Assembly: GCA_022340665.1 (NCBI GenBank)
Contig: JAJDNM010000077.1
Location: 1-47,317 of the forward strand
DNA length: 47,317 nucleotides
Source of the DNA: Acidobacteriota bacterium
Lineage (GTDB): Bacteria > Acidobacteriota > Thermoanaerobaculia > Thermoanaerobaculales > Sulfomarinibacteraceae
Direction of reading: 5' to 3'
Below the pieces are notes generated by a model. The model was not told where the DNA came from and did no database searches. It worked only from the letters and a program-made list of their open reading frames with translations. The position numbers were made by a program, and so were the translations under genes. Of the stretch, positions 4,530 through 21,945 are shown one piece after another. How positions within the stretch are numbered: the stretch's first letter is position 1; the number at the start of each line of letters is the position of its first letter.

Positions 4530-4660
<131 letters not shown>

Positions 4661-8900: not shown

Positions 8901-8949
8901 CCAGACACCTCCTGACGAGGAAGTATACGCCTGCCACCTACCCCGCCGA

Positions 8950-9055
8950 GCTTTGAATTTTGAGTTTTGAGTTTCGAGTTCCCAACCGCCCACCCACCTC
9001 TCCGAATTTGCAGCGGGAGTAACTCAAACCTCAAAACTGAGAACTCAAAACTGAC
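8950..9055. repeat. Inverted heptamer element (TTTTGAG/CTCAAAA)
   Basis: The left arm has TTTTGAG heptamers and the right arm CTCAAAA heptamers around a core with CCGCCCACCCACC and GCGGGAG. Both arms use the same word in opposite orientation. It sits upstream of the fumarase operon and downstream of the first MshEN gene. Confidence 0.8.
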
Positions 9056-15812: not shown

Positions 15813-16850
15813 ATGAGCCCAAAGGTGACGCCCGCAAAGCGCCTGGCACGACTGACCTCCGTACTAGACGGTGCGCGCAGCATGCTGATCATCGTGCAGA
15901 ACACACCGGACCCGGACGCGATCGCCGCCGCCGCCGCACTGCGTGAACTGGCAAACGAACGCCATGAGATCGCATGTTCGATTGGCCACTCGGGCGGTGT
16001 CTGGAGAGCGGAGAACCTGGCCCTTCTCAAGTACCTGGGCCTCAACACCCGGTCTCTCGTCGATCTCGACCTTGATCGCTTCGACAGGTTGAGCATGGTG
16101 GATGCCCAGCCGGGCGCCGGAAATGTGAACTTCGATCCATCGGTCCGGCTCGACGTGGTCATCGACCACCACCCGATCCGACGCGAAACCCGAAGCGCGA
16201 GATTCACCGATGTGAGAAGCCGCTACGGAGCAACCTCGACGATACTTTTCGAGTACCTCAAGCAGGCGAAAATCGAGATTCCGACTCCAGTTGCGACCGC
16301 GATGGTATATGGCATCAGATCCGATACCCAGGACCTCGGCCGCGAGAGCACTCGAGCGGACGTGGAAGCCTTCCTTGACCTCTACCCGCTCGCCAATCCT
16401 CGTGCCCTCGGCCGAATCGTCCAAGCGACGCTGCCCCGCACCTACTTTTCCAAACTGCGAAATGCCCTGGACGATGCAAGGATCCACGGCGACCGAATAG
16501 TCTCATACCTCGGCCAGCTCGAATCACCAGAGATGGTGGCAGAAGCTGCAGACCTGCTGCTGCGCGCCGAAGGAATTCAATGGGCAATGACCATGGGGAT
16601 TATCGACGATACGCTCCACCTCAGCCTCCGTACCACGGACCGAGAACGCCACGCGGGTCGGGTCGCACGCAACCTCGGGGGGAGGAGCGGCTTCGGTGGC
16701 GGCCATCAGGCGTTGGCTGCGGCGCAGATCCCCCTCGAAGAGACCGACCTGAGCGAACGAAAGCTTCGGACGAGGATGAGGGACCTGACGAAGAGGTTTC
16801 TGCGTGCCACCGGCGACGCCAAGGAACCCGGCAAACGCCTCTGCCAATAA
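15813..16850 (+). CDS. DHH/DHHA1 phosphoesterase (nanoRNase/pAp phosphatase-like)
   Basis: A 345-residue protein. DHH domain: MLIIVQNTPDPDAIAAAAAL (motif I), SMVDAQPG (motif II), VVIDHHPI (motif III, the name-giving DHH), then TSTILFEYLKQAKIEI and TAMVYGIRSDTQDLGRE (motif IV). The C-terminal DHHA1 ends GGRSGFGGGHQALAAAQIP, the substrate-binding GGGH. Such enzymes degrade 2-5 nt RNAs or 3'-phosphoadenosine phosphate in the cytoplasm. In motif I the usual metal-binding His position appears to be Gln (VQN). The start has only a weak ribosome site. Its stop runs straight into a repeat element. Confidence 0.85.
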   Translation: MSPKVTPAKRLARLTSVLDGARSMLIIVQNTPDPDAIAAAAALRELANERHEIACSIGHSGGVWRAENLALLKYLGLNTRSLVDLDLDRFDRLSMVDAQPGAGNVNFDPSVRLDVVIDHHPIRRETRSARFTDVRSRYGATSTILFEYLKQAKIEIPTPVATAMVYGIRSDTQDLGRESTRADVEAFLDLYPLANPRALGRIVQATLPRTYFSKLRNALDDARIHGDRIVSYLGQLESPEMVAEAADLLLRAEGIQWAMTMGIIDDTLHLSLRTTDRERHAGRVARNLGGRSGFGGGHQALAAAQIPLEETDLSERKLRTRMRDLTKRFLRATGDAKEPGKRLCQ

Positions 16851-17055
16851 TTTTCAATTTTGAATTCTCAATTCCCCTCCTGCCCCCTGTTCTCGGGGAG
16901 GGTGGTTGGGAACTCACCGACAACAGCGCACCGTGGCCGTAGCTGAGGGGGTCGGCTCGAGGGCGGGTGGGAAGCGTACGGCCACGCGCTGGTGGTGGTG
17001 AGTCGCGACGCCCACAGGGCGTCCGTAATTCAAAATTCAAAATTGAGAATTCAGA
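16851..17055. repeat. Heptamer arms enclosing REP-like element copy 2
   Basis: A left arm (TTTTCAATTTTGAATTCTCAA) begins at the DHH stop; a right arm (AATTCAAAATTCAAAATTGAG) ends at the stop of the ceramide synthase-like gene. Between them lies a second copy of the palindromic element (16913-17002): CTCACCGACAACAGCGC...GTGGCCGTA with TACGGCCACGCGCTGG...GTGAG. It is followed by the triloop hairpin GACGCCC-ACA-GGGCGTC (17007-17023). Confidence 0.8.
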
Positions 17056-18184
17056 TAGCTTTTTCGTAGACGCGGTAGACCTTGTACAGCTCACCGTCCA
17101 TCAGGCGGACCGCTCGTTTGGTGAGCTCGTTGTCCTCGAGAATCCACGAGTATTCGCACCACTTGTAGCCGACCTCGAGGCTCTTTTCGAGGCCCTCGCC
17201 GAGAAGGATCCCTTCGACGCCCCGCTTCCTGTGCCCTCTCTTCGTTCCGAGAGTGAAGAGGCGCAGGCCTTCGAGGGTTTCCGGTTTGGTCGTGAGGACA
17301 TGCCTCAGAGTTCGCAGCGGGTGCCGCCACGGCGAACCGTCGAGATCGGCGAGTACCGGATTCCAGTCGGGAATGGTGAGGAGGAAGGCCACCGGTTCTC
17401 CGTCGTAAAGGGCGAACCGCAGCAAATCGGGATGCACGAGTGGCCGTAGCTCCTTTGCCAGCCATTCGATCTCGGCGTCCGCCATCGGCACGAACCCCCA
17501 GTTCTTCTCCCATGCCGAGTTGTAGATCTCCTGTACCAGCTTGACCTCGCCGTGGAAATCCGAAAGGTTGGCGCCTCGGGTCGTCAAACCCGGATTGCGT
17601 TCTTTTGTCCTGTCGGCCAGCTTCTTGAGGCGCCCGAGGCTCGCGCCATGAACCGGCGAGATGTAGGCGTTCAGATCCTTGGCCTTGCTGTAACCCGCTC
17701 CCTCGATGAGTCGCGGATAATACTGCGGGTTGTATGTCATCATCAGAACGGGCGGTCTCGAGAACCCTTCAATCAGCAATCCGCACTCGTAGTTGGTTGA
17801 TGGGTTCATCGGACCGATCACCGACCGGACACCCTTTTCGGACGCCCACGCTTCAGCCGCGTTCAACAGTCCGCGAGCGACGTCGGGCCGGTCGATGCTC
17901 TCGAAGAAGCCGAAGAAGGCGACGTTCTCTTCCTGAAATCGGTTGTAGTTGTGATTCAGGATGGCTGCGATCCGGCCGACCGCATCGCGGCCGTCCCAGG
18001 CTACGAACAGCTCGGCCTCGGCCGCCCTCCCCTTTTCGTAGAAGGGGTGCTTCTCGACGTCGAGAAGCTCGCGCACGGACGCTTTCAGTGGAGGCACCCA
18101 GTTCTTGTCATTTCGGTAGATCTTCCACGGCAGGTCAACGAACCGCGCCAGATCCGACCGGTTTCGTACGGGTCGTACCTTCAC
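17051..18184 (-). CDS. GNAT-fold ceramide synthase-like (bCerS / YghO family)
   Basis: A 377-residue cytoplasmic protein of the YghO-like acyl-CoA N-acyltransferase group: RFVDLPWKIYRNDKNWVPPL at the start, AEAELFVAWDGRDAVGRIAAILNHNYN, FFGFFESIDRPDVARGLLNAAEAWASEKGV, IGPMNPSTNYECGLLIEGF, then LFTLGTKRGHRKRGVEGILLGEGLE near the C-terminus (acyl-CoA loop). In Caulobacter, a GNAT-like protein of this kind is the bacterial ceramide synthase acting with Spt and CerR. Here it directly follows an Spt gene (4-base overlap) and a CerR-like gene, so N-acylation of the sphingoid base is the likely step. Family membership is firm; the ceramide function is inferred from the neighbours. Confidence 0.78.
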   Translation of the reverse strand: MKVRPVRNRSDLARFVDLPWKIYRNDKNWVPPLKASVRELLDVEKHPFYEKGRAAEAELFVAWDGRDAVGRIAAILNHNYNRFQEENVAFFGFFESIDRPDVARGLLNAAEAWASEKGVRSVIGPMNPSTNYECGLLIEGFSRPPVLMMTYNPQYYPRLIEGAGYSKAKDLNAYISPVHGASLGRLKKLADRTKERNPGLTTRGANLSDFHGEVKLVQEIYNSAWEKNWGFVPMADAEIEWLAKELRPLVHPDLLRFALYDGEPVAFLLTIPDWNPVLADLDGSPWRHPLRTLRHVLTTKPETLEGLRLFTLGTKRGHRKRGVEGILLGEGLEKSLEVGYKWCEYSWILEDNELTKRAVRLMDGELYKVYRVYEKAI

Positions 18185-19365
18185 GCGATCACTCCCATCT
18201 CGCGGCCCACTTTTCGGAATGCTCCGAGTGCGCGATCGAGGTGATCTCGAGAGTGGGTCGCCATGTACGAGGTCCGGATCATCGCCCTCCCTTCCGGCAC
18301 GGCCGGCGAAACGACCGGGTTGGCGAAGACGCCCTCCTCCTGCAGTCTGATCGTCATCTTGAACGCGGCCATGTCCTCGCCCACCACCAGTGGAATCACG
18401 GGAGATTCCGACTCGCCGGTGTCGAATCCCATGGTCGAGAACTCACGCTTCATGTAGTCCGTGTTCTCCCACAGCTTCTGCCGCCGCTCGGGTTCGCGCT
18501 CGATGACCTCGAGGGCCTTGATCACCGAGGCCACGGAGGCCGGCGGTGGGGCGGCCGAGAAAATCAGCGAACGCGCGTGATGCTTGACGTAATCGATGAT
18601 CTGGCTGTCACCGACAACGAATCCGCCGACCGTGGCCAGCGACTTCGAGAAGGTGCCCATCACGAGATCTGCCTCATCCTCGAGCCCGAAGTGCTCCGTC
18701 GTGCCGCGGCCATTCTCGCCCATCACACCGATTCCGTGTGCGTCGTCGACCATCAGGCGAGCTCCGAATTTCTTCTTCAGCTCGACGATTCGTGGGAGAT
18801 TCGCGAGGTCGCCCTCCATTGAGAAGACACCATCGACGACGATCAGCGACGAACGGTCATCTTCAACGCTTCGCAGCCGCTCCTCCAACGCGTCCATGTC
18901 GTTGTGCCGGTACTTCAACACCCGCCCAAAGGAGAGCCGGGCTCCATCGAGGATGCACGCATGGTCCAGGTTGTCGAGGATGACGACGTCCTTGCGGTCG
19001 ATCAGACTCGAGATGACGCCCAGATTGACCTGAAACCCGGTCGAGAACGTGAGGGCTGCTTCCCGGTTCATGAACTCGGCCAGCCTTCTCTCGAGCTCGA
19101 CGTGGATCTCCAGGGTGCCGTTGAGGAATCGCGAACCCGCCGTTCCGGTTCCGTAACTCTCCAGCGCCTCGGCCGCCGCCTTTTTGATTTCCGGGTGATT
19201 GGTCAACCCGAGGTAGTTGTTCGAGCCGAGCATGATCACACGTTGGCCGTTCATCGTCACCACCGGGTCCTGTCCGGAGGCGATCATGCGAAAGTATGGG
19301 TAGATTCCAAGGTCGCGAACCTCGTCGGCTTCCCTGAAATTGAAGCACTTCTGAAAGACGTCCAC
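18181..19365 (-). CDS. spt: Serine palmitoyltransferase
   Basis: A PLP enzyme of the alpha-oxoamine synthase family, 394 residues from GTG 19365 (412 if from GTG 19419). Signatures: YGTGTAGSRFLNGTLEIHVELE, FSTGFQVNLGVISSL, LDNLDHACILDGARLS (PLP-stacking His), VDGVFSMEGDLANLP, VDDAHGIGVMGENGRGT and GTFSKSLATVGGF with the Schiff-base Lys. The GSRFLNGT and MEGDLANLP stretches closely resemble Bacteroides Spt rather than KBL or BioF. It condenses L-serine with a fatty acyl thioester to 3-ketosphinganine. The chosen GTG has GGAG five bases upstream and gives the usual N-terminus VDVFQKC. It overlaps the GNAT gene by 4 bases. Confidence 0.87.
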   Translation of the reverse strand: MDVFQKCFNFREADEVRDLGIYPYFRMIASGQDPVVTMNGQRVIMLGSNNYLGLTNHPEIKKAAAEALESYGTGTAGSRFLNGTLEIHVELERRLAEFMNREAALTFSTGFQVNLGVISSLIDRKDVVILDNLDHACILDGARLSFGRVLKYRHNDMDALEERLRSVEDDRSSLIVVDGVFSMEGDLANLPRIVELKKKFGARLMVDDAHGIGVMGENGRGTTEHFGLEDEADLVMGTFSKSLATVGGFVVGDSQIIDYVKHHARSLIFSAAPPPASVASVIKALEVIEREPERRQKLWENTDYMKREFSTMGFDTGESESPVIPLVVGEDMAAFKMTIRLQEEGVFANPVVSPAVPEGRAMIRTSYMATHSRDHLDRALGAFRKVGREMGVIA

Positions 19366-19458
19366 CTTCACTCCGCCGTGAAAATTACGCTCACCCGATC
19401 TCAGGCCCACTTCGCGCACAGAAGCGGCGTCGACATGATAGCAGGGGGAACCCCGGTC

Positions 19459-20502
19459 TCAGTTCAGCCAACCCCGATCTCGATACCAGGTCCAGGTCAC
19501 GTCAACCCCCACCCGCCATGGAGTCAGATCAGTCACACCGAGAAGCTTCAGGCTGTCGCCCGTCCGCGCGGTCCAGTGACGGGCCAGCAGCTCGCGACTC
19601 TTGTCGGACGTCAGCGCCAGCCGACGCCAGCCGAGCCTCTGCAGAACGCTGCCGATCACCCCTGCGCCTGACACCAGCGCCGGCGGTACCCGCAGGACAC
19701 GAGCCTTCACGCCGCCGATCTCGCAGAGAGAATCGATGAGCCCTTCGAGCTCGAGCGGCTCGGCTTCGCCGACGTGGAAGACCTCTCCGACGCTCCCGGA
19801 GGCCGCGGCCAGGATCGAGCGCACCACATCGCCCACCCAGGCCACAGTCAACCACCGTTCGCCGGCGGGGAGCCCGACCAGCCCGCTGCTCGCCATGCGG
19901 AAGAACTCGAAGACGTCGGTATCACGCGGGCCGTAGATCGCAGCCGGCCTGAGAATCGACCAGCCGCCGTACCCTTCCCACTTTCGCACCTCATCTTCGG
20001 CGGCGAGCTTCGATCGGCCATACCAGGAAATTGGCGCAGGCACCGCCTCGGGCCCGACTCCCTCGGGCGAACGCGACGGACCGACCGCCGCCAAGGAAGA
20101 CACGTTGATCAGACGGGAGCCTCGGGCGGTTTCCTGCATAGCCGAGACCAGACTTGCAGTCCCCAACCGGTTGCCTTCGTCGAACTCTCGCTCGCGACCG
20201 GCGCGGAGCACGCCCGCCAGGTGGAAGACCGTTCCAGCGTTGTCGACGAGTTCGTCTAGGGCCCGGGGGTCGGAGAGCGACCCGACAACCCACCGAACGG
20301 GTGCGTTGGCGATCCAGCGCGGCGCCTCGGGATCACGAACCAGGATGCGGGGCTCGATACCGGCAGCACACAAAGCGTCGACGAGATGCGAACCGACGAA
20401 CCCCGTCCCGCCGGTGATGGCAACCGGCTGCGGAATGGCGTCGAGCCACGGCTTCACCCGATCGGGCGAAACGAGGGGATTTCGATGCGAGAAGTCTGTC
20501 AT
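19459..20502 (-). CDS. Extended SDR, CerR-like ceramide reductase
   Basis: A 347-residue NAD(P)-dependent epimerase/dehydratase-type protein. Rossmann motif TGGTGFVG at about 30-37, active-site Ser in LINVSSLAAVG, Tyr161 and Lys165 in WYGRSKLAAED, then ILRPAAIYGPRDTD and VFHVGEAEPLELEGLI. Alone this family has many functions. As first gene of a unit with serine palmitoyltransferase and a GNAT ceramide synthase, it most likely reduces the 3-keto group during ceramide formation, as CerR does in Caulobacter. The ATG at 20502 has no clear ribosome site; a TACAAT box ends 11 bases before it, so a very short leader is possible. The frame opens up to 20532. Confidence 0.78.
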   Translation of the reverse strand: MTDFSHRNPLVSPDRVKPWLDAIPQPVAITGGTGFVGSHLVDALCAAGIEPRILVRDPEAPRWIANAPVRWVVGSLSDPRALDELVDNAGTVFHLAGVLRAGREREFDEGNRLGTASLVSAMQETARGSRLINVSSLAAVGPSRSPEGVGPEAVPAPISWYGRSKLAAEDEVRKWEGYGGWSILRPAAIYGPRDTDVFEFFRMASSGLVGLPAGERWLTVAWVGDVVRSILAAASGSVGEVFHVGEAEPLELEGLIDSLCEIGGVKARVLRVPPALVSGAGVIGSVLQRLGWRRLALTSDKSRELLARHWTARTGDSLKLLGVTDLTPWRVGVDVTWTWYRDRGWLN

Positions 20503-20536
20503 CGTCGAGGGAGATTGTACCGGGACGCGCAAGATC

Positions 20537-20640
20537 AGTTTTGAGTTCTTAGTTTTGAGTTTTGAGTTCCCAATTTTCCCCCCGTTCCGAACCGGGGGTA
20601 GGCGGGGGAAAACTCAAAACTCATAACTCAAAACTCATCA
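20537..20640. repeat. Inverted heptamer element (TTTTGAG/CTCAAAA)
   Basis: The left arm (GTTTTGAGTTCTTAGTTTTG, etc.) and the right arm (AACTCAAAACTCATAACTC, etc.) are the same heptamer word in opposite sense. They surround a core with CCCCCGTTCCGAACCGGGGG. It lies between the ceramide operon and queD. Confidence 0.85.
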
Positions 20641-20664
20641 CTGAGCACGAGGAGCGCGGCCGCG

Positions 20665-21135
20665 TTATTCGAGGCCAACGTATTCACCCCAGGAGGTGGA
20701 TGTTTCCCAGACTCGAACCCGCTCCAGCTCGAGGCCGGTCGGGATCTCGTAGCTCGTCCCGCTCGGAGACTCGACCGTACCATCGGCCGCGATCCGCTCC
20801 GCCATCTGTTGGTAGATCCACCGCGCCAGCACCTCGGTCGTCGGATCGCAATCATCGAAGATCAGCACGCGATCACCGATCGCCGTCAGTCCTTCGAGTT
20901 GAGGGTCCGCCGAGTTGAGCGCCATTGCGTGGTCGAGTCGCTTGACGATGTCGATCACCACCATCTTGAGCGCCTTGTAATCACACACCATATCGTGGTC
21001 ATCGAGCTCGCGACCACGCGCGACAACCTCGATTCGGAGGCTGTGTCCGTGCGGAAAACGGCACTTCTCCGGGTGCTTGCTCAGCCGGTGCCCGTATTCC
21101 ACCTCGAATGTCTTGGCGATCCTGAAGAAACCCAT
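20665..21135 (-). CDS. queD: 6-carboxytetrahydropterin synthase QueD
   Basis: A 156-residue protein of the 6-pyruvoyl-tetrahydropterin synthase fold. Zinc ligands: His16 in YGHRL and the HGH of CRFPHGHSLRIEV, where the Cys four residues before HGH is catalytic. Further motifs: DHDMVCDYKALK, LDHAMALNSAD and PTTEVLARWIYQQM. QueD converts dihydroneopterin triphosphate to CPH4, the first dedicated step to preQ0/queuosine, in the cytoplasm. It starts immediately after the QueE stop (TGA ATG), so the two are co-translated. Slightly longer than many QueD (about 120 residues) owing to a C-terminal extension EIPTGLELERVRVWETSTSWGEY. Confidence 0.9.
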   Translation of the reverse strand: MGFFRIAKTFEVEYGHRLSKHPEKCRFPHGHSLRIEVVARGRELDDHDMVCDYKALKMVVIDIVKRLDHAMALNSADPQLEGLTAIGDRVLIFDDCDPTTEVLARWIYQQMAERIAADGTVESPSGTSYEIPTGLELERVRVWETSTSWGEYVGLE

Positions 21136-21813
21136 TCAAACTCCCCGGCCCCCTCCGAAGAGGTCCAGATGTAGGCGCGGAGTGTAACGAAAGCCGTGCT
21201 CCAGACACAAGGCCGCCACTGACGGTGCCCGTTCAGCCACCTCCTCAGCGTTCCTGCCCTGGGCCATGAGGAGGACTCGTCCCGGGTCGATTTTCCCCAG
21301 GGCGCCGAGCAGGTCGAGGATCTCCGGCATATCGCCGGCGTTCTCGACGACGAACTTGAGCTGGTGTTCGGGGAAACGCTCGAGGAGCTCCGTCATGGGC
21401 TCGCGATTCTTCCGCAGGCGGCCGTGACGATCGTTGTTGGCGTCCGTCGGGTCGGAGTTGGCAGTCTTCGGCGAAAGGGACAGAAGGTCGCAATAAAAGA
21501 CGGGATTGACCGTGCCGGCCGTTTCGACAGTGATATGAAGGCCAACCTCAAGCAGGCCTCTCGTGAGGGCTCCGATCTCCCTTTGGATCAGGGGCTCTCC
21601 GCCGGTGACCACGACGTGACCGACGCCCGACGCCACCGCTCCTTCGACCAACTCCCCGACTGCCCGCCGCTCCCCCTCCGGCTCCCAGGAGGCGTACGGC
21701 GTGTCGCACCATCGGCACCGCAAATTGCACCCTGACGTGCGGATGAAGTGCGACGGCACACCGGCCAGCAGCCCTTCCCCTTGGATGCTGGTGAAGGTCT
21801 CGGAGATGAACAT
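21136..21813 (-). CDS. queE: 7-carboxy-7-deazaguanine synthase QueE
   Basis: A 225-residue radical SAM enzyme. The N-terminal FISETFTSIQGEG is the QueE opening, followed by RTSGCNLRCRWCDTPYASWEPEGE with the CX3CX2C cluster motif, HVVVTGGEPLIQ, and a late TANSDPTDAN and LKFVVEN. It converts CPH4 to 7-carboxy-7-deazaguanine with S-adenosylmethionine, directly after QueD in the pathway. QueC and QueF are not in this window. The frame opens 10 codons earlier; the ATG at 21813 gives the family start, though without a clear ribosome site. Confidence 0.92.
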   Translation of the reverse strand: MFISETFTSIQGEGLLAGVPSHFIRTSGCNLRCRWCDTPYASWEPEGERRAVGELVEGAVASGVGHVVVTGGEPLIQREIGALTRGLLEVGLHITVETAGTVNPVFYCDLLSLSPKTANSDPTDANNDRHGRLRKNREPMTELLERFPEHQLKFVVENAGDMPEILDLLGALGKIDPGRVLLMAQGRNAEEVAERAPSVAALCLEHGFRYTPRLHLDLFGGGRGV

Positions 21814-21841
21814 AGGTGGTGAAGGTATCACCCCGATTGTC

Positions 21842-21945
21842 AATTAGGAATTAGGAGTTAGGAATTAGGAATTTCCACCCCCCCCCGTTCTAACTGAATG
21901 CCTCGGGCGGTTGGGCGGCATTCCTCATTCCTCATTCCTCATTTA
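21842..21945. repeat. Inverted heptamer element (TAGGAAT/ATTCCTC)
   Basis: Four TAGGAAT-type units, a C-rich to G-rich core (CCACCCCCCCC ... GGGCGGTTGGGCGG), then ATTCCTC units. The right arm reaches into the uvrC stop codon on the minus strand. Confidence 0.82.

Follow-up and report, generated by a model that had tools for sequence, protein, structure and literature searches.

A compact three-gene locus predicted to encode ceramide backbone synthesis in an acidobacterium of the Thermoanaerobaculia

Known bacterial ceramide gene clusters

The bacterial genes spt, bcerS and cerR frequently occur together in clusters, and potential ceramide producers have been identified in about 40 phyla; in Bacteroidota, the three genes are usually not all close to one another (PMC11334938). 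The rhodobacterial pathway comprises five genes (CC_1165-1162 and CC_1154 in Caulobacter), and in E. coli BL21 these form the cluster yghO-aasR-cerR-acpR-spt, in which spt, an acyl carrier protein, a fatty acyl-AMP ligase and an epimerase are annotated beside yghO. The BL21 cluster served here as the named reference for the GNAT and SDR proteins, both of which were themselves assigned in BL21 by homology to Caulobacter. In BL21(DE3) (L089:14283-22067), lptG and lptF come after the spt cluster, an arrangement shared with the sphingolipid region of Caulobacter (PMC11324152).

The locus described here is a trio of genes encoding a serine palmitoyltransferase (SPT), a CerR-like SDR and a GNAT acyltransferase. 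It was found in the window, by which is meant the whole 47,317-nucleotide stretch of acidobacterial DNA that was analysed. The trio shares homologous SPT, CerR and GNAT proteins with the rhodobacterial pathway, whereas AcpR and AasR are absent and the SPT belongs to another branch of the family (42% identity to BL21 Spt). No lptG- or lptF-like gene was seen adjoining the trio. The SPT/CerR/bCerS clusters of Myxococcota, Bdellovibrionota, Acidobacteriota, Ignavibacteriota and other phyla contain the same three families, usually adjacent, and like the trio they carry an SPT of the Bacteroidota/deltaproteobacterial branch. The differences between the trio and these clusters are confined to lineage details, such as queD upstream in close relatives and a second GNAT in some Myxococcota.

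A sequence-only reading of this DNA had considered the combination of a Bacteroides-like Spt with a GNAT-type synthase to be a noteworthy mix. This was not borne out, as the combination is the usual one: in a Bacteroidota sample (148 genomes from the phylum of a Bacteroidetes MAG), the GNAT family is present in 142. The GNAT gene lies about 150 bases or less from the SPT gene in several Bacteroidota genomes (e.g., G176, G182, G188, G192 and G204). A GNAT partner is the norm for SPTs of the Bacteroidota/deltaproteobacterial branch.

Organisation of the locus

The trio is encoded on the minus strand, in maximal open frames at 17051-18184, 18181-19419 and 19459-20532, and the codon-position GC of these frames is close to that of neighbouring real genes. 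The first gene encodes the CerR-like extended SDR (19459..20502; 347 residues), which likely starts at ATG 20502. About 90 bases separate its stop from the start of the SPT gene (18181..19371; 396 residues), where GTG 19371, located behind 'cggag', is the likely start in preference to 19419. The last gene has a GTG start and encodes a tandem-GNAT N-acyltransferase of the bCerS/YghO type (17051..18184; 377 residues). The SPT stop and the GNAT start overlap by four bases (GTGA; 18181..18184), and translation of the two genes may be coupled across this overlap. The sequence-only reading had reported three adjacent minus-strand genes, the four-base overlap and the motifs GSRFLNGT, MEGDLANLP and GTFSKSLATVGG, all of which were found in the sequence; its proposal of an operon is likewise supported by the overlapping genes and the conserved linkage.

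The trio is surrounded by housekeeping genes: queD, queE, uvrC and RNase III lie upstream, and the downstream genes encode an AHSA1 protein, a penicillin amidase and, on the opposite strand, a DHH protein. Among the genes adjoining the trio, none was recognised as encoding a head-group enzyme, a transporter, an ACP or a ligase. The host genome is 3.95 Mb and 97% complete, and the named relatives closest to it in the trio are MAGs with the labels Thermoanaerobaculia, Holophagae and Acidobacteria, which places it in the phylum Acidobacteriota.

Every close relative examined (L039, L040, L093, L094 and L095) has queD directly upstream of the trio, together with queE where this was seen (20665-21843 in the window). 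The queD and SDR matches overlap in L095, which suggests that the two genes share one transcript there. In the window, the spacer between queD and the SDR gene (20503..20664; no strand) contains AT-rich direct and inverted repeats. Heptamer-type repeats of this kind (AACTCAA / AATTCAA words, in places as inverted pairs) occur between genes at 20537-20642, 8949-9052, 17027-17050, 16850-16873 and 4580-4596, with 8 and 12 found where 0 were expected. One such set parts queD from the SDR gene, and in close relatives the gap at this point is shorter or absent.

The predicted serine palmitoyltransferase

The PLP-dependent enzyme of the trio is predicted to be a serine palmitoyltransferase, acting on serine and a long-chain acyl thioester. 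Its best NCBIfam model is NF047600 (SerpalmtaseCFB), which scores ahead of every KBL/BioF model at 585.5 bits, below the curated cut-off of 640 bits. This cut-off is narrow, because most SPT matches in Bacteroidota also fall short of it (it is exceeded in 1 of 34 genomes). When the PDB was searched, the SPT of Sphingobacterium multivorum (8GUH, 3A2B), to which the window enzyme is 54% identical, matched at 471 bits, followed by a Thermus KBL/BioF enzyme at 358 bits, KBLs at about 300, a cysteate acyltransferase at 289 and alphaproteobacterial SPTs at about 280.

The roles of the PLP- and serine-binding residues have been described for the S. multivorum enzyme (PMC10196870), and active-site roles are also discussed elsewhere (PMC9304779). 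N52, Y54, S81, H138, S185, D210, H213, T241, S243, K244, A274 and R367 are all kept in the window SPT, as is every side chain that touches bound serine or its waters. The single change among the compared catalytic and serine-contact residues is Met271 to Ile, the commonest residue at this position in linked SPTs. The residues that define membership are present, namely the PLP lysine in GTFSKS (codon 18643-18645), the stacking His138, Asn52, Ser81, Ala274 and Arg367. Positions 81 and 274 separate the SPTs (Ser and Ala) from KBL (Val and Asn) and from the Thermus enzyme (Ala and Thr) in the alignment.

These residues bear on the identity of the amino acid substrate. An enzyme that uses mainly alanine or glycine would give ceramides of the 1-deoxy type; SPTs do accept both amino acids at low efficiency (PMC10196870), and 1-deoxyceramides have been described together with candidate producers among bacteria (PMC11334938), but the complete retention of the serine- and water-contacting side chains makes this unlikely. 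A cysteate C-acyltransferase of the SulA type, which would turn the operon to sulfonolipid synthesis, is more improbable still. It shares a superfamily and its chemistry with the window SPT, and the solved cysteate acyltransferase and a SulA-type chain (280 bits) both appear among the matches, yet they score far below the SPT match. In addition, position 274 of SPTs is lysine in sulfonolipid enzymes (PMC9304779), whereas the position of SulA Lys281 is alanine in the window enzyme, as in SPTs.

The serine palmitoyltransferase assignment is also supported by phylogeny. In a 93-row tree, which like the GNAT and SDR trees is a quick reconstruction with SH-aLRT support only and with the BL21 rows on long branches, the window SPT falls within an 84-row clade (SH-aLRT 98) that includes the S. 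multivorum SPT and the GNAT-adjacent SPTs, and KBL, BioF, the Thermus enzyme and the host's own KBL homologue are all placed outside this clade. A grouping with KBL or BioF, which the sequence-only reading had named as the result that would speak against Spt, was not seen, and its assignment of an Spt with Bacteroides-like motifs agrees with the NCBIfam, PDB, residue and tree evidence. Homology (37% identity to KBL and 34% to BioF) is what would favour a KBL- or BioF-type enzyme that has no lipid function and merely neighbours an unrelated SDR and GNAT. Against this stand the position in the SPT clade, the SPT-like active-site residues and the presence of a separate KBL homologue in the host genome, which pairs with E. 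coli KBL with a support of 100, so that this reading retains a negligible probability.

The GNAT acyltransferase and the SDR

The GNAT protein is predicted from its family and linkage to be a ceramide synthase that N-acylates a long-chain base. It is 33% identical to YghO of E. coli BL21 over its full length (385 columns); its Pfam match is marginal, and a PDB sequence search returned no match. An AlphaFold2 model built with 39 homologues (pLDDT 93.7) has a tandem GNAT fold. The closest structures are tandem GNATs such as 7q3a (Z 24.1, rmsd 3.4, 301 aligned), and there is also a resemblance to N-myristoyltransferases (Z about 15.6), enzymes that use long-chain acyl-CoA. Such fold likeness in a model is by itself no proof of function. 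The earlier assignment to the YghO/GNAT type is upheld by the YghO homology and the SPT linkage, and the protein sits among SPT-linked proteins, with no sign of the clade of other proven function that had been raised as a concern. No second member of the family was found in the host genome. Two GNAT copies are present in three Myxococcota loci (L100, L103 and L104), in the order SPT-GNAT-SDR-GNAT; the second copies branch separately in the tree and perhaps differ in acyl or base preference.

The SDR is predicted to be a 3-ketosphinganine or 3-keto-ceramide reductase. It matches the Pfam Epimerase family (4.8e-26) and is 31% identical to CerR of the BL21 spt cluster (E 1e-32 in a 7-protein set). 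The features expected of CerR are present: it is an spt-linked extended SDR with a Rossmann GGTGFVG motif (G31, G34, G37) and the catalytic residues S135, Y161 and K165 (YxxxK), and G31, G34, G37, Y161, K165 and E169 are invariant among 79 SDRs. In the SDR tree, whose deep branches are weak, it groups with SPT-adjacent SDRs, apart from four other SDRs of the host genome. The CerR-like assignment made from the sequence alone is thus corroborated by BL21 CerR homology, motifs, tree and linkage. The top NCBIfam match, the sugar epimerase HpnA, was rejected at 95 bits against a cut-off of 368; BL21 CerR behaves alike.

Linkage and distribution

Linkage was surveyed by scanning species genomes for GNAT relatives only, which gave 80 loci, 52 of them cut by contig ends. 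Even so truncated, 55 of the 80 carry an SPT gene and 44 carry both SPT and SDR. The SPT gene is nearly always within 500 bases of the GNAT gene, mostly with gaps of less than 140 bp, and these loci come from many phyla. The same-strand order SDR-SPT-GNAT is the commonest, being found in 21 of the 44 full sets. Where the GNAT stands alone, the host genome usually has an SPT elsewhere; of 43 acidobacterial genomes with the GNAT, 42 have an SPT-family match at E<=1e-60, as do 26 of 26 others, most at SPT-level identity. Some GNAT relatives occur in genomes with no clear SPT (e.g., G162).

In close relatives, the gene order of the trio is preserved and identity is 49-74%; the arrangement is therefore not due to chance. 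The trio is retained in two genomes of the same family and is patchy across the sampled class: families f1 and f4 have it, and no GNAT match was obtained in f3, f5 or f6. The survey of relatives that the sequence-only reading had called for thus found the three genes linked. SPT-GNAT(-SDR) linkage is therefore old and widespread, and it provides the best reason to assign the genes to one pathway; it also counts against the view of the SDR and GNAT genes as unrelated neighbours of a KBL- or BioF-type enzyme.

Acyl donor, pathway and order of steps

The absence of a dedicated acyl carrier protein or acyl-ACP synthetase, as claimed from the sequence alone, was confirmed among the neighbours of the trio. 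Across the genome, E. coli AcpR matches only the housekeeping ACP encoded next to fabF, and the sole full-length AasR-like ligase lies in a type III PKS-like cluster. The dedicated AcpR and AasR that characterise the rhodobacterial pathway were accordingly not found, which is to be expected here, because Bacteroidetes SPTs are reported to use acyl-CoA, and AcpR and AasR to be alpha-, beta- and gamma-proteobacterial features (PMC11324152, PMC9386255). Given the locations of these two matches, acyl-CoA or housekeeping acyl-ACP probably serves as acyl donor. Genes for a type III PKS-like protein, an ICMT-type methyltransferase, this fatty acyl-AMP ligase and a flavoprotein follow one another on contig C32 (L207:3421-8349), an arrangement that resembles a phenolic-lipid cluster; an AasR role for the ligase was rejected because of these neighbours.

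Taken as a whole, the three genes very probably form an operon for a ceramide backbone of the SPT/bCerS/CerR type. The SPT would form 3-ketosphinganine by condensing L-serine and a long-chain acyl thioester, using PLP on Lys243 and releasing CO2. The tandem GNAT would use a second acyl thioester for N-acylation of the long-chain base, and a dihydroceramide-type lipid would result from NAD(P)H-dependent reduction of the 3-keto group by the SDR. The earlier proposal that this organism makes sphingolipids is supported at the level of genes by sequence families, residues and linkage. Co-transcription and the enzyme activities themselves are inferred, as are the donor, which of acylation and reduction comes first, and the head group, should one be added.

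The order of the last two steps is disputed. In Caulobacter, N-acylation is believed to precede reduction, and CerR is periplasmic (PMC11087976), and another group has argued for the opposite order; both views have been summarised (PMC11324152). Within the ceramide operon reading, a eukaryote-like order, in which 3-ketosphinganine is reduced in the cytoplasm before N-acylation, is a real but less favoured possibility. No hydrophobic or signal-like stretch was seen by eye at the SDR N-terminus, and a 3-ketosphinganine reductase is known from B. thetaiotaomicron (PMC9278070). However, the Caulobacter data favour acylation first, and the N-terminus is not diagnostic of location, because BL21 CerR likewise begins straight at the Rossmann fold.

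Implications for predicted acidobacterial ceramides

The trio is one more well-supported case of ceramide synthesis spread across many bacterial phyla. This type of gene cluster is already known from dozens of phyla, and the known framework is unchanged. A further, tentative proposal is that the trio, retained next to queD within a single acidobacterial family, is a self-sufficient three-protein ceramide module that would draw on acyl-CoA or the housekeeping ACP and whose reductase would be cytoplasmic. The membranes of a Thermoanaerobaculia lineage may then contain ceramides, which searchable papers do not document for it. The trio is a compact and easily cloned three-gene set, and as it lacks AcpR and AasR, it could be used to test the sufficiency of SPT, GNAT and SDR and the order in which they act.
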